In this document: in pieces, positions 9,473 through 63,664 of the stretch | Layout: every line of letters starts with the position of its first letter | Position numbering within the stretch: the stretch's first letter is position 1 | Origin: Hexactinellida sp. DTS-2022 | Lineage: Eukaryota; Porifera; Hexactinellida | Length of the DNA stretch: 64,000 nt | NCBI GenBank assembly: GCA_028753945.1 | Contig: JAPNXP010000016.1 | Coordinates: 2,388,001 to 2,452,000, forward strand | Direction: 5' to 3' | Made by a program: the position numbers and the translations under genes | The notes under the pieces: model-generated | The model's database searches: none | Told to the model about the DNA's origin: nothing | Seen by the model: only the letters and a program-made list of their open reading frames with translations

Positions 9473-30199
<20,727 letters not shown>

Positions 30200-40600: not shown

Positions 40601-43600
40601 CAAACAAATTTCAACGGTCCCCCTGGTAATCGCATTACCAAATCACATAGTTTATTATACAGTCAACTCTCGTTATAACGAAGTGCTTGGGACCTGTAAA
40701 TTCATTCGTTATATCCGGATATTCGTTATAAGCGGATAATAATTAATGGATTTAGTGTTCTAGGAGAAAATCTCAATTTTGTTATAAGCGGTTATTTCGT
40801 TATATCCGACTTCGTTATAACGGGAGTTCTCTGTAATATAAACAACCCATAACACAGTTAGAGAATATCCCAGCAATACTATAAGCCTGGTATATTATTC
40901 TATCCTATCGCTTATGGTTGTAGTTATATTGATAAGCTGGGAAGGTCCCGAGGGGCTCTCTCCTGGTTATGCTAATGACAAACTACAGAAGAAGATCGAA
41001 ATATTAGGTAAATTTTAGTTAACCTAATACAGTAGAACTCTATTCATTTCACTTCAAAGCTTTTCCAATACGAATTATACGTATTGTATAATATGGCGGA
41101 CGCATTTTGCAATTTGACCGTCCCGTGGTGTTCGTACTAACAAGGTTCTACTGTATGTTAATATCTAATTAATCTACATTTGTGTTATGATTAGGACAGA
41201 ATTCCTTATTTAGTAATTGAAAAACAGGAAGAAGGTTCATAGTAATTTGTGCGTATGGTTAAATCTCATGTTATTATAACGAAGCAGGATGTTATTCTAG
41301 AGTGTATTGTGTTAGGTAATTAAGTGTAGAAAAGACTACAAATATATTAATTAATAAGATATAGCTATAGTATTATTTCAATAAATGAAAAGAATTAATG
41401 AATTAATATAATTACTTTATTAAATTTGAAGAGTAAAACGTTTTACTTTCAACCCATGTTTCTAAAAATCCGTTTTGTTTGTCTACAGAGTTCAATCATA
41501 AGTATATAACATTTAACGGATATTATATCAAAAATTATCAGTCATTATGGACAATCCTCGTTCGCAGAATTTATATCTAAAAACCATTTTTACTGTGCAG
41601 ATGTCAGTTTTGAAACTATTGAAATTATAAGCGATTAAGTTAATTATGGGCGATTAAGTTAATTATTATAATTATTATAATTATTTATTACAGGGTATAT
41701 GGCAACCGTTTTCCAATATAGTGTTCTTATATCCGATATGTTCTTATAACCGGTGTGCTTATATCCGACATCTACTGTACCTCGAATAAGAACACAAAAC
41801 AGTCCAGTTTCTTCAATCATACAAACAAATATATGACACTCTGCCGTGTTTTATTAGTATAGACTCTAGAGTATAAATTGTATTTAAATTTCCCTCGTGT
41901 TTTGCATAAACTAAATGTCATTATCAGTATAACTTTTTGCATAAACTAAATGTCATTATCAGTATAACTTTTTGCATAAACTAAATGTCATTATCAGTAT
42001 AACTTTTTGCATATACTAAATGTCATTATCAGTATAACTTTTTGCATAAACTAAATGTCATTATCAGTATAACTTTTTGCATATACTAAATGTCATTATC
42101 AGTATAACTTTTTGCATATACTAAATGTCATTATCAGTATAACTTTTTGCATATACTAAATGTCATTATCAGTATAACTTTTTGCATATACTAAATGTCA
42201 TTATCAGTATAACTTTTTGCATATACTAAATGTCATTATCAGTATAACTTTTTGCATATACTAAATGTCATTATCAGTATAACTTTTTGCATATACTAAA
42301 TGTCATTATCAGTATAACTATCATTAAATAACAAATTTATAAATCGTATTATTGCTAGGAGGCAAGATTCTCGGCAAGTGGGAGGTAGACTGTGAGGTGT
42401 ACTCCTCTCTGAATGGAATAGTCGGTCTCACGGACACACAAGCTCCGGCCGCTACCCCGCTAGGCGGCGCCACCGGCCCCCAACAGGCCATATACGTACT
42501 GCACAACTCTAATTATAGTCTCAGCACGTTCGCAATTCTAGAGGACGACACGGTGCTAACTGCTGACTCTAGCTTCGATCAGTTCCTACCACACATGAAA
42601 GCGTTTTATAAGAAAGGTATACAGTAGTAGCCTATTGGTTCCAGGCTTTCATACAGGTATACAGTAGACCAGTGGTTCCAGGCTCTCATACAGCCATTTG
42701 TAAATGCGCTCCTAATCCTGGTCTGATCCAATTTTCATACGCCTAAATCACAAATTAATGTTACGGTATAGGAGAGGATTCCAAATTTTCGCGCTCCTAA
42801 ATAAAAATTTTCCAAAAATCATGCTCCAAAAGGAGCGTCTCGGCTCCTGAATAATTCCTTGCCTGAGGGGACCGACGAATTTGTTCGTATTATTCGGAAT
42901 TCGTATTAACCAGAGTCAGTTGCATGCTTTTGAAAACTTGTATTTTAACCGTTATTCTCCTTAATCACGTTAGTATTATTAATTTAACCAAGAGTCTACT
43001 TTCTACTATACTGTTACGAATCAATTGAAAGTAGAAATACTATCAGCAAATAACTAGAATTTCTACTCAAAAACCTACTCTATTCTAACAAGCATATTAA
43101 CGTTACACAATGAACTTATTTTAGAGCTTAAAATGCTATAAGGAAGTTATATCTCATCATAAGTTCGTAATCTCATTTTGAGCACTCTGAGCAGCTTGAA
43201 ACAATAATATAATCATAATTTTAATACATTCAATTCTGACGAAGTATTTATTAATACTGTAGTTATTTTTGCAATATAAAAGGATTGTCTATCACTCTTG
43301 GAAGCGTTACGTAACGTTTGAAATGCTCTATAAATTCCTTTCAATAGGATACCGTTTCCCCCTACATGTTGTCATCTTATACAGTTTCCAAACTAGCTCT
43401 AAAAGGATTGTCTGTCACACTTTATTAACACATTAATTATTCCCCTCTTGGAAGCGTTAAATAACGTTTGAAGTTTGAACCCATAATTAATACAATTCCT
43501 TTAATAGCATGCCATTTCCCCCTATATATTGTCATGTTACACAATAGCTTTCTAATAGGTCAGAAGAGCGATGCTCGAGGGAACAGATACGAACTGAATG

Positions 43601-47280: not shown

Positions 47281-48039
47281 TTAGTTAACAGTATACTTCG
47301 AATTACTGGAATAGTCTGTGCATTGTCCCATATGCCTCATAGCCCTATAAGAAGGGTGTGGGTCGATACAAATAGAGTGTTGTACCACTGGTCTGATTAT
47401 GCTCTGAGGGAACATTCCTCTCTCAGGCTCCTCACTATAGTGTGCCGTGTTATTGTTGGGAACCCCAGTACTGCTGTAGTAGGAGGGAATATACTCAGGA
47501 GGGCTGGAGTAGTTAGAAGGAACATATTCAGTAGAGGAACTGTTGTAAGAAGAATTAAATTGATTAAATTCAGTGTAGTTTGAAGGAACATATTGAGTAG
47601 AGCTAGTGTAGTAAGAGTGTATGTAGTCAGGAGGGCTGGAAGGAGTATACTCAGCAGGCAAGCTCTCGTTCACAGAAGAGGCGGCTACAGGTGTGTACAG
47701 AGGGGAAGAGAGAGAGCTTATCACAGAGGAGTGTGGCTCCAAATGTGTTGAATGCTTGGGAGGAGAGTGTGGAGGTATTCTCAGGGGATGCAGAGATGGG
47801 GGCGTAGGCATGAGACGGAATTCTTCGCAATAAAGTGCACCATTCGAATCCTGATAGGTGCAAGCGTAGGAACCGAATGTTCCCGCTTGTATGCAGTTAT
47901 ATTCTAAGCAGTGCCCTCTCTCGAGATTAATATGCACGTTATTTCGGAACCAGTGGTGGTTGTAGAAATGTAGTTTGCAGGAGGCCTTGAGTTGTATGGC
48001 TTCTCCTATATTTCTGTATAAAATAGGGTGGCTACTCAT
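47281..48039 (-). CDS. Ig-like domain protein with Pro/Ser/Tyr-rich tail and PHxS motif
   Basis: Intronless, 252 aa from the ATG at 48039, function unknown. Residues 10-76 resemble an Ig-like domain: C21, W30 in HHWFRN, then G56-x-Y58-x-C60 and a closing strand EEFRL. There is no signal peptide or membrane segment, so if translated as read it is intracellular. Residues 78-200 are rich in Pro, Ser and Tyr with repeats of SSTQYVPSNY/SSTEYVPSNY and PPEYIPSYY. Near the C terminus is VVQHSICIDPHPSYR, which matches motifs in the two genes at 60196 and 63083; LHPLRIPPHSP and HLEPHSS are weaker internal copies. A TATA-like AAAGTATAAATAGGGG lies 48-62 bp upstream of the ATG. Secreted or membrane function through an unseen upstream exon remains possible. 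Confidence 0.72.
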   Translation of the reverse strand: MSSHPILYRNIGEAIQLKASCKLHFYNHHWFRNNVHINLERGHCLEYNCIQAGTFGSYACTYQDSNGALYCEEFRLMPTPPSLHPLRIPPHSPPKHSTHLEPHSSVISSLSSPLYTPVAASSVNESLPAEYTPSSPPDYIHSYYTSSTQYVPSNYTEFNQFNSSYNSSSTEYVPSNYSSPPEYIPSYYSSTGVPNNNTAHYSEEPERGMFPQSIIRPVVQHSICIDPHPSYRAMRHMGQCTDYSSNSKYTVN

Positions 48040-48085
48040 TGTTTGATGCTTTGAATTATTCCTTATTTCAATATAACAAAGTGGC

Positions 48086-48102
48086 CCCTATTTATACTTT
48101 TC
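48086..48102 (-). promoter_or_regulatory. TATA-like element of the 47281 gene
   Basis: On the minus strand it reads AAAGTATAAATAGGGG. It lies about 50 bp before the start codon, a spacing compatible with a core promoter and a short 5' leader. Comparable TATA words stand before 60810 and 63604. Confidence 0.5.
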
Positions 48103-48779
48103 TGAACGAAACTCATGACTTTAGGTATAGTATATTATTCAACATTACCGCTAAACTAAAATTAGAATAATAATTCAGTGCTGTACATAATGTAATAGTA
48201 ACGAATGAAAATTTAACCAAATTAGGAGTATGATGGGAGTAATAATTAAATTGATAAGCATTACATATATTACATAAGCTAGGATATTATCATTAATTCG
48301 TAGTAATAAAATCTAAAGCAAAAATTGTACAATTTTTGATTATTAACAGAATTAGAATTCCAGTTTACAAAAGTATATTGACGCTAATAATATACAACAC
48401 AACACATGATTAAACCCGTCATTGCTACTGTATAATATATTTGATTTGTTTGTTAACTTTTACAAAATAACGTGATTCTAAAATGTAGATCTATATAACT
48501 TTAGTCATTCTCCTTATACAAAATAATACAAATTAGTTGTGCACGTGAGAGCATGTGAGAGACATTATCCTATACAATTGTGTTTAATAGATTTGAACTG
48601 CTTCGTTTACATAAAAAGTAGAAAAACAATTCAAAGTAATTTACTTAGAGGTAAGATGAACCCTGTAGTTTTTGTAAAATAGGCAATCAAATAGTTTGTG
48701 TAGGCTAGTGTATATAAAGAGATTATACGTATTGATTGTAGCAAGAACAACTTGGTCTTAAAATCTGAAATGTCACAAT

Positions 48780-48860
48780 CAGGCTTTTATCCAGGTTAAT
48801 TTTTCTGTGCGACTAGATTATGTTTGAGCTCGCTCACATGCGCCAAAAAATTCAATTTGT
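48780..48860. repeat. TTTATCCAGG/GCGAGCTC repeat fragment
   Basis: It has GGCTTTTATCCAGGTTAATT and GTTTGAGCTCGCTCACATGC. Related sequence is at 51600-51785, where both ends are present, and 35410-35450. Confidence 0.5.
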
Positions 48861-48947
48861 ATTATGTCTTAGTTAAACTGACATCCTATAATTATTGCTT
48901 TCAATAAAGAATCGTTTGTCTGAACCAACTATTATATTATCAAATAA

Positions 48948-49038
48948 TGAATCCATGCAAAGTTCCTATTATAATTTCAGAGCCTGAATCTCAGAATGCA
49001 ACTGTTGGGAGTACCGTTACGTTTAAGGTGAGTGTGTC
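48948..49038 (+). CDS. First exon of an Ig-like domain gene, partial
   Basis: It reads from the ATG at 48948: MNPCKVPIIISEPESQNATV then GSTVTFKVSVSG. The P-x-S-x-x-x-x-V-G-S-x-V-T-F pattern is the A'-B strand region of an I-set Ig domain. Two donors are possible: AAG|gtgagt (exon end 49026) and TGGA|gtaaga (exon end about 49038), both phase 0; the frame closes with TAATAG at about 49058. There is no signal peptide. I could not find the next exon in the following 10 kb of AT-rich DNA. It is divergent from the Ig-containing gene at 47281-48039, 0.9 kb away. It could also be a pseudogene fragment. Confidence 0.45.
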
Positions 49039-49239
49039 TGGAGTAAGACTCACTTATTAATAGCCTTTTAATCCCCCAGGAATATACATAAATAATTGTA
49101 AAATCAAATATTATTAAATATTATCCAAATAACTAAGAGGCTATTGGAGATATGACCGCTACACAATAGTAGTTGATGAAATTATGAAATCAGTTAACAA
49201 ATCTCAACTGTCTCGAGTACATTTCGCACCCATAAAATT

Positions 49240-49352
49240 TTCTAAAAGTACTAAAATCATGATTAGTTTCTAAAAAGTACTTAAACCATAATTAGTTTCT
49301 AAAAGTACTTAAATCATAATTAGTTTCTAAAAGTACTTAAATCATATTTAGT
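49240..49352. repeat. ~31-bp tandem array, four units
   Basis: The unit is about TAGTTTCTAAAAGTACTTAA followed by ATCATAAT. Four imperfect copies. Confidence 0.75.
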
Positions 49353-49844
49353 TTCATAACAATTATTTTTATCTTCATACGTTAATCTAGCGTAGAATAT
49401 AGTTGACCTATATCACTTTTGATAAAAGAATTAATGTTAGTAAGATAATAATTACGAATGCAACCAAAGCAAAAATGAGTTTAATTATCAATTGGATCAT
49501 GAAAGTAATCAGAAACTATGTACTCCCCAATAATAACCAGCTGAAACGAAACATTGCAAAATATATTGGCCCGTAACACCTTTATACTTGCATGTGATAA
49601 AAGTTTTGCACCACCAATTGATTTCAGGATTTTTATTAGAATAGAAAGGAAGTGCTATTAAAGTTAATTAAACACAAATATTTCAAATTATGCTTCGAGA
49701 CGTAATTAGAAATAAATTTACACTCAATCAAACTCATCATGAGGAGTACAATTAAAATAACCAGTGTATGCTTGCTAATACGCTTGTTGATTGTTATTGC
49801 TTGTTTATTTAAACATTAATTAGATAATATTTACTATCTATATT

Positions 49845-49906
49845 ATTAAAACTCGATTGTTGTGTGTGTATGTGTGTGACCGATACCGAAGGGCTCGTTG
49901 GTAAAT
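49845..49906. mobile_element. Short copy of the Helitron-like element
   Basis: TCTATATTATTAAAACTCGA at the left, a TGTGTGTGTATGTGTGTG run, and ACCGATACCGAAGGGCTCGT at the right. It joins the two ends of the long element at 52475-53897 with the middle missing. Confidence 0.6.
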
Positions 49907-50498
49907 AAAATCTTAATTAATAAAAAAAAACAAGCCGTACCAATCAACAAGCAAACACAATTTTATCCTCATTTTACTCTTTTCGTGTACTTTATGCTAA
50001 ATAGACAAAGTTCAAATGAAATTCTATTTATAACTTGAATCCCAGATCACTAAAGTTCAATCTTCAAGAGTTTCAATTTGCTAAAACAGCCTACCTAGTT
50101 CTTGTTGATCACATTGGTATTTGCCTATATCATAATAATACGCAGTAGATTTCAATGAACTTTGCTGTTTAAGTCCTTAGTTTACTCCTTACTGAAATTA
50201 ATATCATCTGATTAGCAAACAAATTAGTAATTTGAACTAATATACGTATTTATATTGGTACTGACATGGTTATTAATATGGAAACTAACACGGTACAAAA
50301 TTCTACTTTGCCTTGAATATCAAAAGTAATGATAATTAAATAATTATTGTTTTTGTACATTTTAAAGTACATAACCTGTTGTGTTCAATCATGATAATTT
50401 GGCTCAAAATAATTCGGATAACGAAAATTAATCTGGGAAGTCATATTTAATTAAGTATTTGTAGTTTCTAAATTGCCAAGTGTTGATAATACGTACTA

Positions 50499-50662
50499 CA
50501 GTGGATGCACATCGTCGGGAACTGCACTTAATGTGCTTATAACCGGCATGTTCTTATAACGGACATAAGTTATATAGGGATATGGCAACCGTTTTCCAAA
50601 ATAGTGTTCTTATATCCGATATGTTCTTATAACCGGTGTGCTTATATCCGACATCTACTGTA
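50499..50662. mobile_element. TA6 MITE
   Basis: CAGTGGATGCACATCGTCGG to CTTATATCCGACATCTACTG, TA on both sides. It has GTGCTTATAACCGGCATG and GGCAACCGTTTTCCAAAATA. Confidence 0.85.
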
Positions 50663-51599
50663 TTGCCATAATTTGTTATAACTTTCAAATTGTTTGCAAT
50701 TACGTAAATCTAAAACAAAAATTGTACAAACTATACACCGGAAAAACAGACAAGTTATTTCAAAGGATTTTCAGAGGAAATTATACAAAGCAGATCGTCT
50801 CGTCCATTGAAAAATTCCAGTAGAAAAAAGAGGAAAATTTAATCATATACGAATAAAAATATTTCTAGATCTAATCTAGAACAATATTTATAAATATCAA
50901 CCTATCAGAATCATGCATATGTTTCCAAATAGCTCAACAAGAGTAATCAATTTCTTTATTTTCCTACAAACTATTGGGTATTGGGGGTAGTATTTATCCA
51001 AATAAGCAATATTTTCTAAGAAATACAGAGTAGATTTGTATATGTAATTAATAATATTTTCAGTATATTTTCAAAGAATAATTAACTTTAGATTATTGAG
51101 AGCTGAGAGAGTTAAATATGAATAACGAAGAAATATGTTTTTTAGCGATTTAATTAATTAAATTAAATATAAAAAGCATAAATTGCTAGAGTATAACACG
51201 TATTAATTAACATATTAGTAGAGAAATATCCCTAAAATAATCTCTAAATATTTCTTAGTATACATACTACACTAAAGGAGGAGCTACATAAAATAATCAA
51301 TGAACTTCAACCAAAGTTCAAGATTTACATTATTAATTTAATTGATATTTTCACTATCATGTCAACAGAGGTACAAATACCAATGGAATTAAATTATAAA
51401 TTATCCCAATTCTAATTGACACTATGAGGTGAGAATTATTTCAAATCAATAATAATGTAAATTGTTTAGAAATTCAAGTTGTTTCAATGTATAATTTAAT
51501 AAAAGTATAATAAGTTGACTATATATGGCTGTAAGAGACATTCTAGCTGGTCAAATTGAAACCTTACCAACTTTAACAAAACTAACATTGTATGACTTA

Positions 51600-51785
51600 G
51601 GGTTTCATCCAGGCGTGCGCGAAGCGTAATTTTTGTAAGAAAACTTTCTAGGCGCGCAAAAATCGATAAATGCTCCCATAGACGTAATGTACAAATTGAA
51701 TAATTATTTATAATTAGGCGCGTGTGAGCGAGCTCAAACTTAATCTAGACGCGCAGGAAATTTTGCCAGGATGAAAACCTGTTGT
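51600..51785. mobile_element. MITE with GGTTTCATCC/GGATGAAAACC termini
   Basis: The left end is GGGTTTCATCCAGGCGTGCG and the right end GCGCAGGAAATTTTGCCAGG then ATGAAAACC. Internal GGCGCG boxes (AGGCGCGCAAAAATCG, AGGCGCGTGTGAGC) are unusually GC-rich for this region. Confidence 0.6.
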
Positions 51786-52474
51786 AGGTATTGTATAATC
51801 TTAATAACTTTGCTCCAAACTCACTGATATTGATATGGCCCTGAATTTCCTGCAATAATATAAATATAATTCACAAACGTGACTACTGATTATTAAACAG
51901 AATTATTGCTACACCCTGGTTGTATTAGATGGTTGCATATATATTGTACAATAATTGAGTAAAAGTAATATAAAATTACAAGAATATACGTACAAATCAT
52001 TGTTGATATTGGGCCAACACTATATGATATCTACTAATATTAAAAGATAGCATAATTAATTTGATCACAAATAAACCGCAATTTTGCTATTCGACAGATT
52101 CACTGTAAGCATACGTAACATAATTGAAATATGTTCTGTATTACATAGACATTGCTATTCTTATAGTTAACTGCAAAATAAAATAATTACTTGTAAATAG
52201 ACAATTGTACAGGGTTTTTATACTAACAGCTTATAATATTTATAGATACGAGACCTTCGTTCTTGGTCGTTTTGCGACGGATAACTCAACAGCTATGCGG
52301 TCTAGCTTTTTTTCAATAAATAATTACATTAAAAGTTTGAAAAAAAAATGAATTCAAATCCAGCATACTTGTTTAACTAAATATCCGTTGGAAGCTGGCT
52401 TCTGGGTTCATTTCGAATTTTAATTAATTTGTTTACCCATTTTGTAAACAATAACAATAAATATTCATAATATC

Positions 52475-52495
52475 TATATTATTAAATCTCGATTG

Positions 52496-52542
<47 letters not shown>

Positions 52543-53897
52543 TCCGGATTGTATTAAAGTGATGGGGGGATAGAAACCGCATTAATATATGAGATATAAA
52601 CTAACTGTCAAATGTTATAATTGGTAACAAATGTTATAATAGGTAAACAAATGTTATAATCGGTAAACAAGTATGCCGAACACGAATTTCGCGTTTATAA
52701 ATTTCTCATATTAATATTTGTTGTTGTTGTTTACACAAAATAGGTAAACAAATTAATGAAAATTCAAAATCAACCTAGAAGTTAGCTTCCAACGGGTATT
52801 ATAGGTAAACAAGTATGCCGAACACGAATTTCGCGTTTATCAATTTCTCATATTAATATTTGTTGTTGTTGTTTTTGTTGTTTACTCAAAATAGCTAAAC
52901 AATTTAATGAAAATTCAAAATCAACCTAGAAGTTAGCTTTCAATGGGTATTATAAGTAAACAAGTATGCTGAACACGAATTTCGCATTTATAAAATTCTA
53001 ATATGAGTATTTGTTGTTGTTGTGGTTTACACAAATAGGTAAACAAATTAATGAAAATCAAAATCATAACGTCCCTTTCTACCATTTTCATGGTAGAAAA
53101 TGTGAGGAGTAAGGCCCAAAGCTGGGCACTAATCCGTTAATCCGTTAATCGTTAATTAACGGAAGTTAAATTTTTCGTTAACGATTAACTTTTAAGTTAA
53201 CTTTGAAATCGTTAACGGACTTAATTAACTTCCGTTACATTTACAAGTACGTTAATAGTCCGTTAACGCAATTATGAATTCTTGATAGTTTCTATTACAA
53301 TAACCGAACAAATGTTTTTGAACAACAAGTATTTTATCCCACACACAATATGCTTCTTGAGCGTATTAACGGCAGTTTAACCTACTTTGGAAGACTTTAA
53401 ATATCTTGCTATAGTTATAAACTTCATAAACTTGCGATTTTAAGTCATTTTTGGATAGTGACACTTATGTGAATTTGAATCTTATATCTATATTAGTCAA
53501 CATCCCTTAAACAACTTATTCCCCTTATTATTCGCTGATTATACGATATAAAGGTTGTGCTAGCATATATCTTAGCTTGAATGACCCAACAAAGGAACAT
53601 TTTATAGTTAGAGCACTTTTTGAGATGTCTTATAGCAAAAAAACTGATTTTGTTGTTGTTTGTATAATATAAATTAACTGTAACGGATTAACGTTAACTT
53701 CCGTTACATTTTCAACGTATTAACGGATTAACTGTTAACGATGTTAACTTTTTGGTTAACGGATTAACGATTAACGAAGTTAACTTTTTGATTAACTGTG
53801 CCCACCTTTGTACTAAGGCCGCACAGCGGCCGTTAACTTGAGGTGCGTAGCACCGATCTGTCGCAAAGCGACCGAGACCGAAGGGCTCGTACAATAT
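52475..53897. mobile_element. Helitron-like long element with internal tandem repeats
   Basis: It begins ATCTATATTATTAAATCTCG with a (TG)n run of about 40 bp. Three ~150-bp tandem units follow (52620-53080), each with AAACAAGTATGCCGAACACG, GAATTTCGC and AACCTAGAAGTTAGCTT. The right end is GACCGAGACCGAAGGGCTCG. A reverse fragment of the right end lies at 61165-61320. No terminal inverted repeats are visible; the Helitron label rests on end style only. An hAT-like element is nested at 53117-53812. Confidence 0.6.
53117..53812. mobile_element. hAT-like element nested in the Helitron-like element
   Basis: Ends are CAAAGCTGGGCAC and GTGCCCACCTTTG. The flanks GTAAGGCC (53109-53116) and CTAAGGCC (53813-53820) are an 8-bp target duplication with one change. 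The fragment at 61165-61320 preserves the empty site (GGAGTAAGGCCGCA in reverse). Terminal and subterminal regions are full of GTTAAC/TTAACGGA words, likely transposase-binding repeats. Confidence 0.82.
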
Positions 53898-54910
53898 AAA
53901 TGCGAATTTCGAAATCAGTATACTGTCTACTTGTTTACCTATAATAGCCGTTGAAAGCTAGCTTCTGGGCTGTTCTAAATTCATTTTGAATTTGTTTTTT
54001 TTGAATTTTCATTTTGAACTATTCACCTTTTATCACCAAAACATTACCCAAGGTATTCAAATTCCTTTTCTAAGAATAGATTATAAGAAAGAGAGTAAGC
54101 AATAAATTCCATTAAATCTAGTTCATTATTGACGTAGGTTGCATAAGACAATAATCCCGTTGAGTATAACTCACGAGTATATAGGGTTGAATTTAATTTA
54201 ATTACTTACCCAAATATTCCTGATAATATGAAATCACATTAACATCAACCATCAAAACAAATCGTGCTTTTAATATCATCATGAGTGCAGACTTTTAGTG
54301 TATCATTTTTTCTACTAAGCAAATAATCAATTAACTACCAAAAAAGGAAAAGTAAACCCGTTATGATAAAAACTAAAAATTATTATGAGTAATAAATATG
54401 TGTCAAATCAATTAATTATAGTTGTCTGGTGAAAATGTTAGCTAAATATTAATTAACTAAATCAAATTAAACAAAATAAGTTTACTGACTTTGAAAAAAC
54501 TGTCTGTAGTTACTTTCAGAATAAGTGTTAAATATCATATTTTTGAATAATTGCAACTTTATTCAGTAGTTTTTTGATTTTTCAGCTATTATTTGTAATA
54601 ATAATCCTTCACTCATTCACTGAATTCAGCAAAATTTTAACTAACATCCTGAAAACTTTAATCTCTCTAAAAAGAGAGATTAAGTATAAAAATTGTATCA
54701 TAAATATAATCGTGACTAATAATTCAAACGGTCACGTTTGTTTATAACTGGTATGTATGTCATTTGATTAAGTCAGGCTTTAAGAGTGGTGTAAATTAAC
54801 GAAATTATTTAAATAGGATTGTTTGCATAGTTTAGTCCCAAACTGAATTATGAATTCTAACTCTTTACAACTAATTAATTATTTAAATATACTCACATAA
54901 GTAATAGCTA

Positions 54911-55194
54911 CATAGGCGTAGCAACATGTCCCAACCATGGGGGGGCGGACGAAAGAAGCTTGGTCTCCTTACCAGGTCTCTTAAAAGGTTAACTATATTT
55001 ATGGGACGCTTAACCCTAGGCTATATGGCATGTTATTCGTAGAGTGGATTTCCCGTAATTATCACCATGACCTTTATTTAACTCAAAATGATTCCAATAG
55101 CGCATTAGGTGAATACTAGTGGATGTCTGCATATTTATCGTAATTTTATGGGGGGGCGGAATAATACAGCGACCCCCCCTCAGCTACGCCTATG
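54911..55194. mobile_element. MITE with 12-bp perfect termini and 8-bp target duplication
   Basis: Ends CATAGGCGTAGC / GCTACGCCTATG. AATAGCTA is repeated at 54903-54910 and 55195-55202. G-runs (GGGGGGGCGGA) stand near both ends in mirrored position. hAT-like by duplication length. Confidence 0.85.
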
Positions 55195-55494
55195 AATAGC
55201 TACATAATGTAAATAATTAAATTACACATGACGAACTATAAACATTCAAAATAGAATGGGTTTGCTTTGAGTTTAAACCTAATTAATCATTTCTAAGATA
55301 TTTAATTAAATGAATTAATTATATTCTAGATATTCAATTGTAAATGTATATTATAACTATGAATATGAATGACAATAATTTAATGAAGAATAGAAATTAA
55401 TTACTTAACAGTAAAACGCAGTATATTACTATTACTTCGGTTAATATGTACTAATATTTTAAACAAGTTTATAAAATAGTATGTATTTCTATGT

Positions 55495-55575
55495 AGGGTA
55501 AACTTGGTTAGTACGTACACTCGGATAATATGTACTTATTTACATTCCCAAATGGGTAATAATTGAGTTAAACCA
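55495..55575. mobile_element. TA8-like fragment
   Basis: GGGTAAACTTGGTTAGTACG and TCGGATAATATGTACTTATT match the centre of the TA8 copy at 56109-56275. Only one end is present. Confidence 0.5.
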
Positions 55576-56108
55576 CTTTTTAATGTAATTTTCAGTCACA
55601 GACAAGGTAATTGTACATCACAATTCACCTTTGTGAAGTTTGGTTTATATATTGAAGGACCGGCAACCTTTTGAATAGTGGCCCAGTATTGTTTTACAGT
55701 AATTGTAATTAAAAGATTATCTACATTGTAGACTAATCTTGCGATTAGAATTTAGATAAATTGCAAATATACAAACTCACTATCCTGAATTGGTATAGAA
55801 ATTTTCATAATAATTAATTATCAAAATAACTTATAACTGACTACAAAATTAAACAATACAATAAAAGATTTGTTGTTACACGTAGAATTACAGATAATTG
55901 TATTGGAGAATATTTCTAAGTAATTTAAACTTTCTATTTATGTAAATCAAATGAATTCAGCAACTTAGGAATTGGCTGCAAACTTATTTGTGGTTTTTGC
56001 ATTGTACATCTTTTCTACTCAATATTAGACGTAATACTTACTATATATATTCTACTCCTTTTCAATATATTCAAATTAATCAGACTTAAATTAGATGATA
56101 TATATTTG

Positions 56109-56278
56109 CAGTAGAACTCGGTAATAAAGTACCCCCTCGGAAATGGAAATAAGTACATATTATCCGAGTGTACGTACTAACCGAGTTTACCCTACATAGA
56201 AATAGATATTACTTTATAAACTTGATTTAAAAAATAGTAGTACGTACTACCCAGGTAAGTTATATCCGAATTTTATCG
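56109..56278. mobile_element. TA8 MITE
   Basis: CAGTAGAACTCGGTAATAAA on the left. AAATAAGTACATATTATCCG, ACCGAGTTTACCCTACATAG and the right box CCCAGGTAAGTTATATCCGA follow the order of 6580-6722. Confidence 0.75.
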
Positions 56279-56507
56279 AACGAACTTAATAAGATACTTG
56301 GCTAAATTTCCTAATCTCAATTTATTAACTATTTCTCATCTCAATTGAGATAATATGTAATAATAGTCAGGGGTGTTTACAGGGGTGAACAAATTAATTG
56401 TACATTATTTGTCTCAGTTTAACTTTGCCTATCAGTATTGGAATTCATTTAAGCATACATTTATAAGCTTAATTGACACATTTCTATTCACTAATCATAG
56501 AAATATT

Positions 56508-56655
56508 TGTACGAAAACTGGTTAATACGAACAGTATTTCAGTCCCTTTCAAAGCCTTTTTAAATACAAATGCTAATGTTTAATACGAATTCCGGATAAG
56601 GCGAACGCATTTTGAAGGTCACATGGTGTTAATACTAACGGTATTCTACTGTAGA
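56508..56655. mobile_element. TA1 MITE, decayed left end
   Basis: It has TTAATACGAACAGTATTTCA, GTCCCTTTCAAAGCCTTTTT and TAACGGTATTCTACTGTA. Confidence 0.72.
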
Positions 56656-57631
56656 CTGTAGTGTAATTAAATATACTATAAGTTTAGCAGTTTGTAAATA
56701 AGTAGAAGTAATTATTCATAATCCTCCCCTCCTACATCATTTCTACTCGAACTTCATATATAAATAGAGGAAAATTTAGCAAAATGTAAAATAGAAGTTA
56801 CTTGCTAGAAAAATTAAGTCCTTGGAGATAAAATCGAATCACTCAGGTAAGAAAAAGTCTATTAGGCCATGTCAAATAAATAAATAAATAGTTTATCATC
56901 CGGATTTTTTCAGAAAATACAGACAGCTTACGGGATATTATTTATTATTTATTATTCCATTAACATGCACTAATATTATTATCCCATGCCAAACAATAAA
57001 TATAAATAATTAATTAAATTAGAAAATCACATGACAATGGTTAAATAATTAAAGTAATGCTCTAAAATACATGACTTATAAAAATTGATACATTAGGAGT
57101 ACTTTACACAAGTTTATAGATAATATTTTGGACGATTATGTTCATAAGATATTTACAAAAGATATCTGGACGGATTATAAAAATTGGGACGGACGGGGAT
57201 GATAAACAAGTAATTTAATTTATATGGCCTTATATGGCCTTATTATTACTATATGTATTATTAATATTGTTAATGATTAGCTTTGCGATAAATTAGTGAT
57301 CCCTGAAAGTATTGCCAATGTTATGGCTGTATTTTGAGATTATTCAAATAAAATAAAATCTTAGAAGTAAAGGCAACACAATTTAATTTCTACTCAAGTA
57401 ATCAAGTGTGATCCTCTAACTTAATTATTTGCATTATTTTAGGTAATTCAATAAGTTCAGCTACATAGATAGAAAGTAGAAAACTTTAATTAATAATTAA
57501 GTTAGTCTATGAATAAATTTGATTTACTCATGCAAGTGGCACAAATAATATGCTAATATTACTGAAAGGATTATTTTAGAATTACTCAAGTTTTTGAAAA
57601 ATTCCAAATATACTCAAGTTTTATTGAATTA

Positions 57632-57800
57632 CAGTGGAGCCTCCCATAACGGACACTCCAAATAGCGGACAACCTCTAAATAACGGACAACCCTCGTGGC
57701 ACGAATTTATTTATTTAGCATATGTCTAATAGAAAAGCAACCTCTAAATAACGGACAACGGTACCGGTCCCAAGGTGTCCGTTGTTCAGAGGCTCTACTG
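57632..57800. mobile_element. TA9 MITE
   Basis: CAGTGGAGCCTCCCATAACG to GTTCAGAGGCTCTACTG, TA on both sides. The box TAACGGACAA(C/-) is repeated four times, and GGTCCCAAGGTGTCCG is near the right end. It is the only copy in the window. Confidence 0.85.
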
Positions 57801-58379
57801 TATTCCAAATATGCTCAAGTTTTTATAAATTCGCCGATCTACTCAAGTTTTAGAACGGCTATATTTGGTCTAACTAATAAATAATATTGGTTGGACGCCA
57901 TACTAGTTTCAATAATCCAATAAATTTGAGGATATTTGGAATAATCCAACAAAACTTGAGTATTTTGGGATTTTCCCATAATATAACAAATATCTATAAT
58001 ATAATAATATATAGTATTCTGCGTAGTTAAAGTATTGTGTAATATTTCTATGTTTTTCTACACTAAAATTAATCATTAGTAGTGAATTTGAAAAGTAATT
58101 TGTCTATCTATATTTCATCATAACTATATTAGTTAACTTTATTAATATTAATTTGATTAACATAATAATACGGGTTGTCATTTTATCAGTAGAAATTATA
58201 ACTATAATCTAATCATAAATCTGTTATCATTGTTTAGGAAGTATAATAAAGTAATAACTATATCATGTTTCTAATGATGCAAGTTTTAGTAGAAAATGCT
58301 AGAGAACAGTTTTGCTTCTATACAAAATTCTACTGAATTCTACTTCCAAACATTCTACTGTAATTCTACCACCAAGCAA

Positions 58380-58557
58380 ATATAGTGAACTCCTGTTATA
58401 ACCAAGTCGGATATAACGAAATACCCGCTTATAACGAAATGGATATTTCCAACCAGAGGACTAAATGCATTAATTATTATCAGCTTATAACGAATATCAG
58501 GATATAACGAAGGAATTTACAGGTCCCAAGCACTTCGTTATAACGAGAGTTCACTGT
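58380..58557. mobile_element. TA4 MITE, complete
   Basis: AGTGAACTCCTGTTATAACC to TTATAACGAGAGTTCACTG, with TTACAGGTCCCAAGCACTTC. Confidence 0.84.
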
Positions 58558-58639
58558 AAACAAATTTAATGTATAGTTGTTGAGTGGACATATAACAATT
58601 GATCAATTCACAAATTTGGTGAAGATAATATTTTGTGAA

Positions 58640-58880
58640 AAACAATTAATAATTATTCTATGTTACCCATTTGAAACTCAACAATTTTCGAGGGTTTGTT
58701 AGTATGGATTAGCTTCATCAATTAGTATAAATAGACTGTGCAAGCATAATAGAAATATTTTCTGAGTCTGCAATCTGATTGAGTGAAAATTTATTCATTT
58801 AACCAATCAATAATTTGTCTATTCTATTGCATGTTTTCTTTAGTATTATTTTGGATTCGAGCTTCCTTATCGTGCAACTG
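58640..58880. repeat. ~370-bp dispersed repeat, degraded copy 3
   Basis: It shares TTTCGAGGGTTTGTTAGTAT, GGATTAGC and ATTCATTTAACCAATCAATA with 3665-4045 and 62230-62605. Confidence 0.5.
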
Positions 58881-59553
58881 AAATTTATTGAGCTATTAAT
58901 ATGAGAATTTGATTTTCCCAAACTAATTACATTGTATAGCATTCTTATTAAGTATGGTACGATGAAATATTAATTGTGTTCCTTGTAATATAGTAATATA
59001 CAGGAAATTCCCAAGGAAATTATAATAACTTATTACGAGAGCAACAATGTCTATATAAAATTTAATTAATTTAGAATACAAGTCATGTTGTAAGAACTTC
59101 AAAATTTGTTACTTAGTTAGTTACTTCCAGTTAGTTCCCATAATTTATGATCATTTCTTATTATAATTATAAATAGAACTAAAGTGTTATAAACTCGTGA
59201 TTATCAGTTTATACTTCTTATTGTGCAAACATTTATTTGAGTAGATTTACAGTCTAGTTACAGAAAATTTCTTGTATGATGGATACTCTAATACTACATA
59301 ATATTTTTTGTAAAATTAATGTGAAATCCTATTTTTCCAAAATAGCACAACTTAAATAACATTATGGTTAAGGGGCAAGTTGAACTATTGTAATATAGTG
59401 AATAATTAATGATTATTGATACCCTTTCCACTCGAAAAATGAATAATTAATCAGGAATAATCCATAAAATATTCCAAAATGATTAATTAATTATTCTCGA
59501 TGAATTGTATGATTGTATCCCGATTTTCTAAAACTCTGAACTAGATTTCGACT

Positions 59554-59736
59554 ACAGTCAGGAATGATTATTAAGAATTATTTTTCGTCTGCTTAATATT
59601 AAACTTTTTATTCTGAACAAGCCCTATGGTCCCAATTTAACAACTTACATAGGGTTTGTATTCTGCTGAGTTCGCTTATTATGAAGTCTCTCTACTATGA
59701 ACACAATTTTTAGTCCCGAAAATAAAAGAACCTGAC
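59554..59736. mobile_element. TA5 MITE
   Basis: CAGTCAGGAATGATTATTAA to AAAAGAACCTGACTATA. It holds ATGGTCCCAATTTAACAACT and TACATAGGGTTTGTATTC. Confidence 0.8.
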
Positions 59737-60195
59737 TATATTTTGTAAGTCTTCCTTCTAATATTAATTACTTTTGTTTTGAATAATTAATGATTTAATT
59801 TCTTCATACTGAATAATTTATAATACTAATTCAATAATACATGAATTAATTTATATCTTGGCAATTAACCAAATTAGTTAGTTCAACTTAAGAGATTATA
59901 TTACTATTCAATAGTCCCAGTTAAATGTGAATATAATAAGTAGATCAGTTCATTTATTGATATAATTACAAACAAGTAGAGACAATTGGTTTGATATTAC
60001 AAGTAAGTTTGTTAGATATAATTACCTAAATAACAAGATCCTAAAATATGTATCTAAACAAAAACACACTTAATAATGTATATAATTAATACTGTATATT
60101 TATACATTAGTATAGTACAATTATAATTACCTTATAGCAGAATTATTTAATATTATCTATAAGCTACAATATAACACAAATACTAATGCCTAATT

Positions 60196-60810
60196 TCAAG
60201 GATGGAGATTTATTCTATCACAGTATGGTGGGATCTGCTGTACAAACACCATAGATGGATGGGAGTCTATTCTAGTTGAGTGCTGTATGTTTAAATGAGT
60301 AGTTATTGGCTGTGATACTCTGAAAGGAGAATAATTAATGTCGTTTGGAGTTGCGCTGTATAGAGAGGGGATTGTCTGAGGATGTCCGAATTCTCTGATT
60401 GGAGTTATATTAAGCATTGAGGGGTGTGGATCAATACGTAATGAATTGCGAGGTTTAATGGGTATTCTAGCTTCAATTATATCCGAGTGTTGTATAAATG
60501 TTGGTGGTTCATTAACAGTCGCTCTCGGATAAAGATCTTGTTTCTTAACGGGCGAGTAAGGAGCTATATTAAGGGTTGAATGGTGTGGTTCTATCCGTAA
60601 AGAATTGGGGATTTGTTTAGTGAGAATTCCTATTTCTATACCATCCGAATGTTGTTGTTGCAAAGCTGTTGTTGTTTGTTTGGCAGTCGATTTAGGATAA
60701 AGATCTTGTTTCTTAACGGGCGAGTGAGGAGCTATTTGTAACGCGTGGCTGTATTGGTCTAGATGTGACATTTGTCGGTAAAAATTTGAAGATTTGGTAA
60801 GGTGAGACAT
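60196..60810 (-). CDS. PHxS-motif protein, member 2 of an unrecognised family
   Basis: Intronless, 204 aa from the ATG at 60810 (MSHLTKS); function unknown. The frame extends to 60954 but that part precedes a TATA-like word and is AT-rich leader. Two tandem ~58-residue repeats make up its first half: each has IAPHSPVKKQDLYP or IAPYSPVKKQDLYP, a T-rich stretch, QHSD, then SLRIEPHHSTL or SLRIDPHPSML. The C-terminal part has IQHSTRIDSHPSM. The repeated core [I/L]-x-I-x-P-H-[PH]-S also occurs in the genes at 47281 and 63083. There is no signal peptide, membrane segment, cysteine pattern or known domain. Proline- and histidine-rich composition suggests a disordered protein offering short binding motifs. 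Confidence 0.65.
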   Translation of the reverse strand: MSHLTKSSNFYRQMSHLDQYSHALQIAPHSPVKKQDLYPKSTAKQTTTALQQQHSDGIEIGILTKQIPNSLRIEPHHSTLNIAPYSPVKKQDLYPRATVNEPPTFIQHSDIIEARIPIKPRNSLRIDPHPSMLNITPIREFGHPQTIPSLYSATPNDINYSPFRVSQPITTHLNIQHSTRIDSHPSMVFVQQIPPYCDRINLHP

Positions 60811-60887
60811 ATTGTGTTCCTGTTTGGGAATAATGGATTCTGACTTTTGTAATAAAAAATTTAAATACAATAGTAGTATTTTATTAC

Positions 60888-60902
60888 AAGTATTTATACT
60901 TC
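60888..60902 (-). promoter_or_regulatory. TATA-like element of the 60196 gene
   Basis: On the minus strand it reads GAAGTATAAATACTTG, about 80 bp before the chosen start codon. The core AGTATAAATA is identical to that before the 47281 gene. Confidence 0.5.
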
Positions 60903-61041
60903 GTGGGTATAGTTGTAACAGTATAAAACTCAAGTAATCATGATAAATAATCAACTATGGATCTAGCAATAGAAATTTATAATCTATCATTAATGAATTA
61001 ATTAAAACAAAAACTTTAGTAATAAGCGACAAACAAAAGAC

Positions 61042-61140
61042 ATGCCTCAACTAATCGTTAGACATATCTCCAGGAAAGGGGAATTTCTACTCGCAAAGAA
61101 ATGGGCTAAAATACATGAAGTCCCTGATCCTATTTATTTG
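61042..61140 (+). CDS. Putative exon of an unknown plus-strand gene
   Basis: 33 codons from an ATG (MPQLIVRHISRKGEFLLAKK then WAKIHEVPDPIYL) to a strong donor TTG|gtaagt. An acceptor-like AAAAG at 61039 means it may be an internal exon. Amphipathic composition is compatible with the start of a helical domain, but no family is recognisable. It lies 232 bp from the divergent gene ending at 60810. The following intron would contain the Helitron-like fragment and the GAGCG repeat. Confidence 0.35.
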
Positions 61141-61164
61141 GTAAGTTTAACTCCTAATGTTTAT

Positions 61165-61320
61165 TTTATACGAGCCCTTCGGTCTCGGTCGCTTTGCGCT
61201 GGATTGGTGTTACGCATCTCAAGATAACGGCCGCTATGCGGCCTTACTCCTCACCCTTGCTAACATTTTCCATAGTTTTAACTTGTTTACATATAATACC
61301 CGTTGAAAGCTATTAAACTT
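61165..61320. mobile_element. Helitron-like fragment, reverse
   Basis: ACGAGCCCTTCGGTCTCGGT, then AACGGCCGCTATGCGGCC and AATACCCGTTGAAAGCT. It represents the uninterrupted form of the region into which the hAT at 53117-53812 inserted. Confidence 0.65.
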
Positions 61321-61499
61321 AACTACCAACGAACGAGCATTGAGAAGATGGGTTGAAATTAAGAATCTACTTTGATAGGCAACCGGAAGAGACGAATGGG
61401 ATGTGTAAATCGACTCAAGGAGTACTACCAAACAGGGAAAATTTATAATTTAATTTAATACACAGTTATCTGTTGAAGTGCCATTGGAAAGGACATCCA

Positions 61500-61685
61500 A
61501 TCAACGAATTATCCAGGGGGCGAGACGCTCCTTTTGGAGCATGATTTTAGGAAAAATATTAATTAGGAGCGCGAAAATTTGGAATCCTCTCCTATACCGT
61601 TACATTAATTTGTGATTTAGGCGTATGAAAATTGGATCAGACCAAGATTAGGAGCGTATTTACAAATGGCTGTATAATACACTGC
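61500..61685. repeat. GAGCG-type repeat, copy 3
   Basis: GAATTATCCAGGGGGCGAGA, CGCTCCTTTTGGAGCATGAT, ATTAGGAGCGCGAAAATTTG and GCGTATTTACAAATGGCTGT. CGCTCCTTTTGGAGC is itself a short palindrome. This is the best-kept of the three copies. Confidence 0.75.
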
Positions 61686-62229
61686 CTGGAATGTAGTATA
61701 TTCTATTGGTTTAAATTCCTAATATTTTTAGTGTGAGTCTTTCCAAGAAATATAATTGTGTTAATCACAAGTAAGCTCGAACTTAGTTACCAAGTTACTT
61801 CGGAATTTCCAGGGAATAATAACCTTGGTAACCTAAATGGAACTGAAACCAATAGATAGGTAATTAGTGGCATTATTTGCGATCCTTGAGATTATGATAG
61901 TTTTGATAAGGGTAAAGGTTTGGGTGATGTTAATTAATATTGGAAGTACAATTTCCTACGCTGAATGGACTTATATAACTAGGTATGTATTTTTAGAATA
62001 ATTAATGCAATGTTTCCCAGTTAAATATTTGGTCCCCTAGTGAAATATATCATATGCATAATATAAATAATATCACTACGTATCCCAGTTAATTTAATAT
62101 CACTAATATCATTGATAGTGTGGCTGGTTACAACAGTCTATTGAACTTTTTGTTGAAACACTTGTAAATAATTTGGGGTAATTGTGTTAACATGTTTTTA
62201 ATTATGCCTACGCGATCATTAAGGCAATT

Positions 62230-62605
62230 AACACAAGTGATATTGTGTAAGAAACTGGTAACAGTTACAGACTTTAAATTTGGCATGGAGGTGGGAAATA
62301 CTGTATCTAGAAACAAGTTTAAATATCTAAGAAAAATATTCACATTTTCCATCCCAAAAGGTGACAAAACTAATAGCCAATTAAATTCTAGGGTTGTCCC
62401 AGTATGGATTCAGCTAGAATTAAATTAACATAAATTGATTTTGTTAAGTGTGCATTATAGAATGCCTATCTGAGACTGTAATTTAATTGGGCGAGAATAA
62501 ATTCATACATCCAATCAGTTATTTGTGTTCTGTCTGTCTAGCCATACATTTCTAACAATCCATTGTGTCTATTTGATATCCAATTATTGTGTCATCTGAT
62601 ATCCA
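62230..62605. repeat. ~370-bp dispersed repeat, copy 2
   Basis: GAAACTGGTAACAGTTACAG through CATTGTGTCTATTTGATATC; it matches 3665-4045 throughout. Frames of about 79 codons on both strands are incidental. Confidence 0.7.
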
Positions 62606-62609
62606 ATTA

Positions 62610-63082
62610 ATTACTGTTTAGTGTCTCAGTACCAAGAATTATTATGAAGTTGTATAATGTATACCAGTTTAGTAAAATTTTACAAATGTTTCCTATGTAT
62701 TTAAACAACAGATGTTATTATGTGATATGCCCAGAGTATTGTACCATGAAAGGATTTGTTGGAAAGTATATACCAAGAGGTCGATCAGTCCTCTTGGCTC
62801 AATAAGCCTATGAGCTGAATATGATTGAACTCAAAGCAACCATTTTAAATTGTTATAGAATTAACATAAGCATGGTTCGTTACGTAAATCAGGATAAACC
62901 TAATTATGATTCACATTCCATACCGCCCTTCCCTGGTAACGTTAGTAACAATTACATTGTACCTGTGATAAAACAATGAAATGACATTTTGCACTAATAA
63001 TGTAGTGCCCAAAACCTATACTTATGAGTATAAACTGGGAAACATCCAATCTTGATTGTACTGCAAGGAGAGATATAATGAG
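62610..63082. other. Gap downstream of the 63083 gene
   Basis: AT-rich sequence with a small perfect-arm palindrome at about 62770 (CCAAGAGG ... CCTCTTGG). No gene or transposon end is seen. Confidence 0.45.
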
Positions 63083-63604
63083 TCAGAATTTCCTCTCAGT
63101 ATTATTAGCTAAGGAATTACACGAGAATCCATCAGAGTCAATAGGCTTATAGGGAGCAATAGTGGGAGAATGTAGGTTCAGAGGTCCAATCAGATTTTCC
63201 GCTCCTTCGTTAGGCCTATTAATGATCTGCTGAGTGTAACAAGCAGGTGTATATGAATGAGTGTAATAAGCAGGTATATATGAATGAGTGTAATGAGCAG
63301 GTATATATGAATCAGTGTAATAAGCAGGTGTATATGAATATACTAGCTGACTCGGGAAATAATGTTGTACAGAATGATGGGGTTCAATTTGCTCTGAGTG
63401 CCGTATAGGAATTTGCATAGGGTTCCACTGTCCGATTATAATGGGAGGAAATACCCCATTACTGGATGGGTGTGGGGCGATTTGTATTGGATGACCACTT
63501 GGAAGATATGGGGAGTAAGGCTCGATAAATTCAGAGTGTTTAATTCCAATTTTGTTAATTTCGTAGTCTCCTTCTGAGTAGGTACGTGCTGCGTTATCAG
63601 ACAT
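63083..63604 (-). CDS. PHxS-motif protein with Tyr-rich tandem repeat, member 3
   Basis: Intronless, 173 aa from the ATG at 63604; function unknown. It carries the shared motifs IQIAPHPSS and IRHSEQIEPHHSV, with the decayed forms FIEPYSPYLP and TIAPYKPI at each end. The middle (residues about 93-130) is a tandem of [S/A]-Y-[TI]-P-A-[YHC]-Y-T-[HD] repeats, about four units of ten residues. The composition resembles the PSY-rich tail of the 47281 gene but there is no Ig-like part. There is no signal peptide, membrane segment or known domain. A TATA-like CCTATAAATAACC lies about 50 bp upstream, as for its two relatives. Confidence 0.68.
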   Translation of the reverse strand: MSDNAARTYSEGDYEINKIGIKHSEFIEPYSPYLPSGHPIQIAPHPSSNGVFPPIIIGQWNPMQIPIRHSEQIEPHHSVQHYFPSQLVYSYTPAYYTDSYIPAHYTHSYIPAYYTHSYTPACYTQQIINRPNEGAENLIGPLNLHSPTIAPYKPIDSDGFSCNSLANNTERKF

Positions 63605-63651: not shown

Positions 63652-63664
63652 TTATTTATAGGTT
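63652..63664 (-). promoter_or_regulatory. TATA-like element of the 63083 gene
   Basis: On the minus strand it reads CCTATAAATAACC, about 50 bp before the start codon. No other repeated upstream word shared by all three family members was found by eye. Confidence 0.45.

Follow-up and report, generated by a model that had tools for sequence, protein, structure and literature searches.

The window analysed here is a stretch of 64,000 nucleotides of contig C8 (C8:2388001-2452000), which was examined together with its flanks (254 kb of C8) and used for searches of the whole genome (112.4 Mb in 18 contigs). Between 47 and 64 kb of the window, the longest open reading frames (ORFs) starting with ATG are those of three genes, all on the minus strand: gene A (47281..48039; 252 aa), gene B (60196..60810; 204 aa), and gene C (63083..63604; 173 aa). 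These are the same ORFs that had been pointed out in a previous sequence-only reading, with B counted from its first ATG. The next longest ORF in this region has 83 codons, and the longest ATG ORF in 200 first-order Markov simulations averaged 83 codons and never exceeded 141. Codon scores of the three reading frames were just slightly above those of the other frames, and that of gene C was 0.246 in frame vs. 0.253 in one other frame. Of the five poly(A)-like words sought, none was present in the 250 bases 3' of gene C. Judging from the open frames and from the distance to upstream TATA words (see below), the three genes are apparently single-exon. In agreement with the earlier description, a simple hydropathy scan of the three proteins revealed no transmembrane-like stretch, and by eye they lack a signal peptide. 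They are rich in Pro (10.7-12.1%) and His (6.3-6.9%), and A and C also in Tyr (9.1 and 9.8%, respectively). Their FoldIndex values as whole proteins are near zero, not negative (0.017-0.025), and lower than those of two folded proteins encoded in the window (0.149 and 0.197).

The three proteins share a ten-residue motif, approximately H-S-x-x-I-[D/E/A]-P-[H/Y]-x-[S/P], with a total of 12 copies. Gene A codes for an Ig-like segment (weakly supported), two motif copies, four Tyr-Pro repeats, a C-terminal motif copy, and Cys240; gene B for five motif copies (one of them recognised by its core only), with a C-terminal motif copy followed by a Cys; and gene C for three motif copies, four Tyr-Pro repeats, a C-terminal motif copy, and then a Cys. 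A common order can thus be read in A, B, and C: all begin with Met-Ser, followed by paired motifs, a variable middle, the C-terminal motif copy, and the Cys near the C-terminus. The Tyr-Pro repeat (Y-[I/T/V]-[P/H]-[A/S]-x-Y-[T/S]) is present in four copies each in A and C and absent from B; in gene C it is encoded by a 27-bp tandem array (63231..63339, minus strand; 4.0 copies, 92% matches). Gene B contains a 42-base block twice, with two differences between the copies.

The motif of the sequence-only reading was confirmed: its strict expression gave four matches vs. a mean of 0.002 in shuffled proteins. The six-residue core [IL][DEAP][PS][HY][PHSK][SP] gave 12 matches (three in A, five in B, and four in C) vs. 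0.049 expected, with a maximum of two in 5000 shuffles, and the ten-residue form gave 11 vs. 0.001, the twelfth copy, in B, fitting by the core only. These wider expressions were composed after sight of the sequences, and in B and C internal duplication inflates the numbers, so that more weight belongs to the comparison of one gene with another. Within the motif, Ile and Pro are each conserved in 11 of the 12 copies, and the following position is His in nine copies and Tyr in three; the spacing between copies is irregular. Seven copies end in Ser and five in Pro, four of the latter as S-P. We know of no linear-motif class that the motif would fit. The Ser-ending form (P-x-x-S) bears what we take to be a loose resemblance to the USP7 TRAF-domain consensus, and the S-P ending presumably resembles the sites of proline-directed kinases. 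A literature text search using only letter variants of the motif returned no title that appeared related among those listed. Gene A also codes for two PPxY sequences (PPDY and PPEY). Two PPxY, little above chance, were reached by 137 of 5000 shuffles of A, and two [LPA]PxY by 403 of 5000; no [LPA]PxY was found in B or C.

Smith-Waterman alignments, each with 500 shuffles, gave a score of 120 for A and C (shuffle maximum 75) and of 88 for A and B (maximum 79); for B and C the score of 70 was marginal, being reached by three of the 500 shuffles. The original claim that these genes form a small, unrecognised family sharing a motif is supported by the motif's excess over shuffled sequences, by the alignments between genes, and by the common order of elements. 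The family had also been described as fast-evolving and locally duplicated, which calls for correction. Where identical residues are aligned between genes, the codons were identical in 77 of 214 pairs vs. 78.5 expected from codon usage, indicating that synonymous sites are saturated and that the gene duplications look old; only the internal repeats, namely the 27-bp array in C and the 42-base block in B, look recent. Within genes, 36 of 86 codon pairs for identical residues were identical vs. 31.3 expected. These results fit A, B, and C being old paralogues with motif residues under constraint, and codon saturation, by that measure alone, would also arise from convergence.

A search of the genome for further motif genes, proposed in the sequence-only reading, recognised no fourth gene within the reach of protein and DNA-pattern searches; divergent or spliced copies could escape them. 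Protein searches with A (limit 0.001) and with its Ig part (limit 10) returned only the queries themselves. At a limit of 10, besides finding themselves, B gave two weak matches (E 0.012 and 0.063) and C one (E 0.83), all three with internal stops. The best of three DNA motif patterns, pattern 2, which detects eight of the 12 known copies, had nine matches (three in the reversed control): eight inside A, B, and C, and one in repeat-like sequence that offers no plausible ORF. Pattern 1 had three matches, fewer than its reversed control (seven), two of them inside the three genes and the third at a locus that also holds what we read as transposase-like sequence. Pattern 3 had 24 matches (reversed control, six), two of them inside the genes. 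In sixteen of the other 22 a stop interrupts the matching frame; 13 of these are copies in one repeat array (C1:13935869-13944652), and the rest lie on C1, C4, and C11. In five, Thr, Cys, or Trp takes the place of the Ser (C1, C11, C13, and two on C18): the C1 match belongs to a 42-residue frame in repeat-like sequence, and the other four were seen as matches only. The last one, on C2, reads H-S and sits in no open frame of at least 30 residues in its own frame. Among domain and structure databases, Pfam matched B to YneP (E 0.00017; 21.7 bits vs. a cutoff of 27), and PDB gave matches for C (from E 0.022 upwards) and for A (from E 1.3 upwards), all of which were set aside as probable chance; B gave no PDB match at E up to 1, and a PHROGs search at 0.01 no match.

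The Ig-like domain attributed to gene A (47797..48039, minus strand; 81 residues, with the likeness at about residues 5-77 of A) is weakly supported. The core pattern of Ig domains (the strand-C Trp and the strand-F G-x-Y) is present, and P5, G12, W30, L45, G56, and Y58 of A align with all eight of the neighbouring Ig domains compared. A Pfam scan of A at E up to 0.1 found no family. Aligned by hhalign to a profile of the eight domains, the segment gave an E of 0.0022 with a probability of only 12.9. In hmmsearch with the same profile, A ranked first among 2003 sequences at 13.7 bits, with a shuffled copy second at 12.9. A single-sequence structure model of the whole of A was poor (mean pLDDT 40.1), with one hairpin (strands 58-63 and 69-73). 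An Ig-like nature of this segment is plausible at most.

A TATA word, TATAAATA, precedes each of the three genes on the minus strand; by chance it would be expected there with a local probability of about 0.035 per gene. It starts at -57 from the ATG of A (48089..48096) and at -56 from that of C (63653..63660), within the 50-80 bp previously stated for all three, and at -88 from that of B (60891..60898), outside that range. Single-exon structure and a TATA word had been taken as marks of these three genes, but one or both also occur in other families lying to the right. Five leaderless single-frame ORFs with two Ig domains each (Ig family above the Pfam cutoff in each) lie at C8:2535-2546 kb. 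One of them has at least 17 genome matches including itself: 14 on C8 (12 ORFs, extending to 2816 kb), two on C1, and one, of low score, on C11. Right of gene A there is also an NHL gene that is RING-like (NHL 1.6e-25, with RING scoring below its cutoff). Further families on this side are a seven-ORF array, with an NHL repeat just at the cutoff in the one ORF scanned (20.4 bits vs. 20), and, at C8 about 2459-2527 kb, 25 single-frame membrane-type ORFs, 14 of which have [L/P/A]-P-x-Y in their last 75 residues vs. 0.9 expected. These PY-tailed proteins are possible ligands of NEDD4-type WW domains. On the left, C8:2316997-2327925 holds a tandem array of closely similar single-frame ORFs, with an NHL repeat in the one scanned. 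Within the window, matches were obtained to CFAP65, a PTPLA protein, a riboflavin transporter, and a subunit of initiation factor 2B type, a set that suggests a ciliated eukaryote and probably an animal. A silicatein-type pattern had no match in the genome, a result that would carry no weight if the pattern were split by an intron. The CFAP65-type protein (15403-20430, minus strand; 1675 aa) occupies one open frame, which we consider unusual for an animal gene of that length. A 35-bp tandem repeat at 41900-42319 of the window has twelve copies with 99% matches and so was recently expanded or homogenised. No obvious telomere repeat was found in the inspected stretches of both C8 ends and of the C1 start.

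Among ORFs of at least 150 aa, after four simple-repeat or antisense frames had been dropped, TATAAAW was present between positions -120 and -20 relative to the ATG in 17 of the 35 located right of 2435 kb (A, B, and C included) vs. two of 31 to the left (Fisher 0.00013), a comparison whose border was set after the listing had been seen and which is confounded because many frames on the left are probably exons of spliced genes in which the first ATG is not the start codon. Against the right-side background of 0.105, the 17 of 35 correspond to 1.3e-8, the members of a family not being independent. By family, the word precedes all three of A, B, and C, four of five Ig ORFs, 11 of 25 membrane-type ORFs (five of the 14 PY-tailed ones), and none of the seven ORFs in either the right or the left NHL array; the right array was accordingly left out of the TATA set. 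TATA promoters are thus common to the right and far from universal.

Putting these observations together, we give about an even chance to a reading in which A, B, and C stem from old duplications, are apparently single-exon and TATA-driven, and code for small leaderless, mainly flexible proteins acting as multivalent docking chains. The motif, with three to five copies in each protein, would be a linear docking motif, and its copies along a flexible chain would allow one protein to gather several molecules of a single folded intracellular partner. A metal, one of the partners suggested in the sequence-only reading, finds no support in these observations. Gene A would add an Ig-like module, the Tyr-Pro repeat of A and C could provide a second contact, and the S-P endings might serve as a phosphorylation switch.

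Alternatively, the three could be structural proteins whose Pro/His/Tyr/Ser-rich repeats self-assemble into a granule, coat, or fibre, the motif being a self-association unit instead of a docking site. The biased P, H, and Y composition, the tandem array in C, and the TATA words would all suit such proteins, but the near-fixed Ile, Pro, and His/Tyr at irregular spacing are unlike a regular structural repeat; this, together with the absence of a signal peptide by eye and the addition of an Ig-like segment in A, makes us regard a structural role as unlikely. Quite improbable is that the genes are unrelated and that the motif arose separately in Pro/His-rich sequence through convergence or repeat expansion. 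Such an origin could draw on the marginal similarity of B and C taken alone, the lack of Tyr-Pro repeats in B, the biased composition, and the internal duplication that raises counts in B and C. It would have to account, however, for 12 core copies vs. 0.05 in composition-matched shuffles, for A-C and A-B scores above all 500 shuffles, for the shared arrangement that closes with a motif copy and a Cys, and for neighbouring loci on the same strand with the same TATA word and no member recognised elsewhere. Least probable of all is that the ORFs are untranslated or are exons of larger spliced genes, which the weak codon preference for the frame would allow, but against which stand ORF lengths above the simulated maximum, a last motif copy and a Cys near the stop codon in all three, and a TATA word 56-88 bases before the ATG that, if used, would hardly allow for an exon further upstream.

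A docking function, as in our preferred reading, would make this a novel short linear motif, represented by about a dozen natural variants within a single genome, so that its partner could be sought and its residues mutated directly. To the right, the single-frame families, often preceded by a TATA word, would offer a test case for an animal genome gathering expanding families under one promoter type. A wider proposal, which we regard as improbable, places A, B, and C at the edge of a C8 stretch in which several single-frame families share TATA promoters (the leaderless Ig ORFs, part of the PY-tailed membrane array, and the RING-like NHL gene) and form one inducible or cell-type-specific intracellular programme; the P-H motif, as a novel linear motif, would then be recognised by a partner that this stretch itself encodes.

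Among known systems, MALT1 is an animal protein with intracellular Ig domains, and its tandem Ig domains (PDB 3k0w) were matched by one of the neighbouring Ig ORFs (E 0.00027, third of nine matches), in contrast to gene A itself, which has no PDB match better than E 1.3. The leaderless two-Ig ORFs (C8:2.535-2.816 Mb) resemble gene A in having a single open frame, no leader by eye, a location on the same contig, and a TATA word in four of five. They differ from it in that Pfam Ig scored above cutoff in all five scanned and not in A, whose segment is 14-19% identical to their domains; moreover, no P-H motif was seen in them, and B and C lack an Ig segment. Flexible chains that repeat a short linear motif are a general known kind of protein, which A, B, and C resemble in their several irregularly spaced copies with near-fixed core residues.
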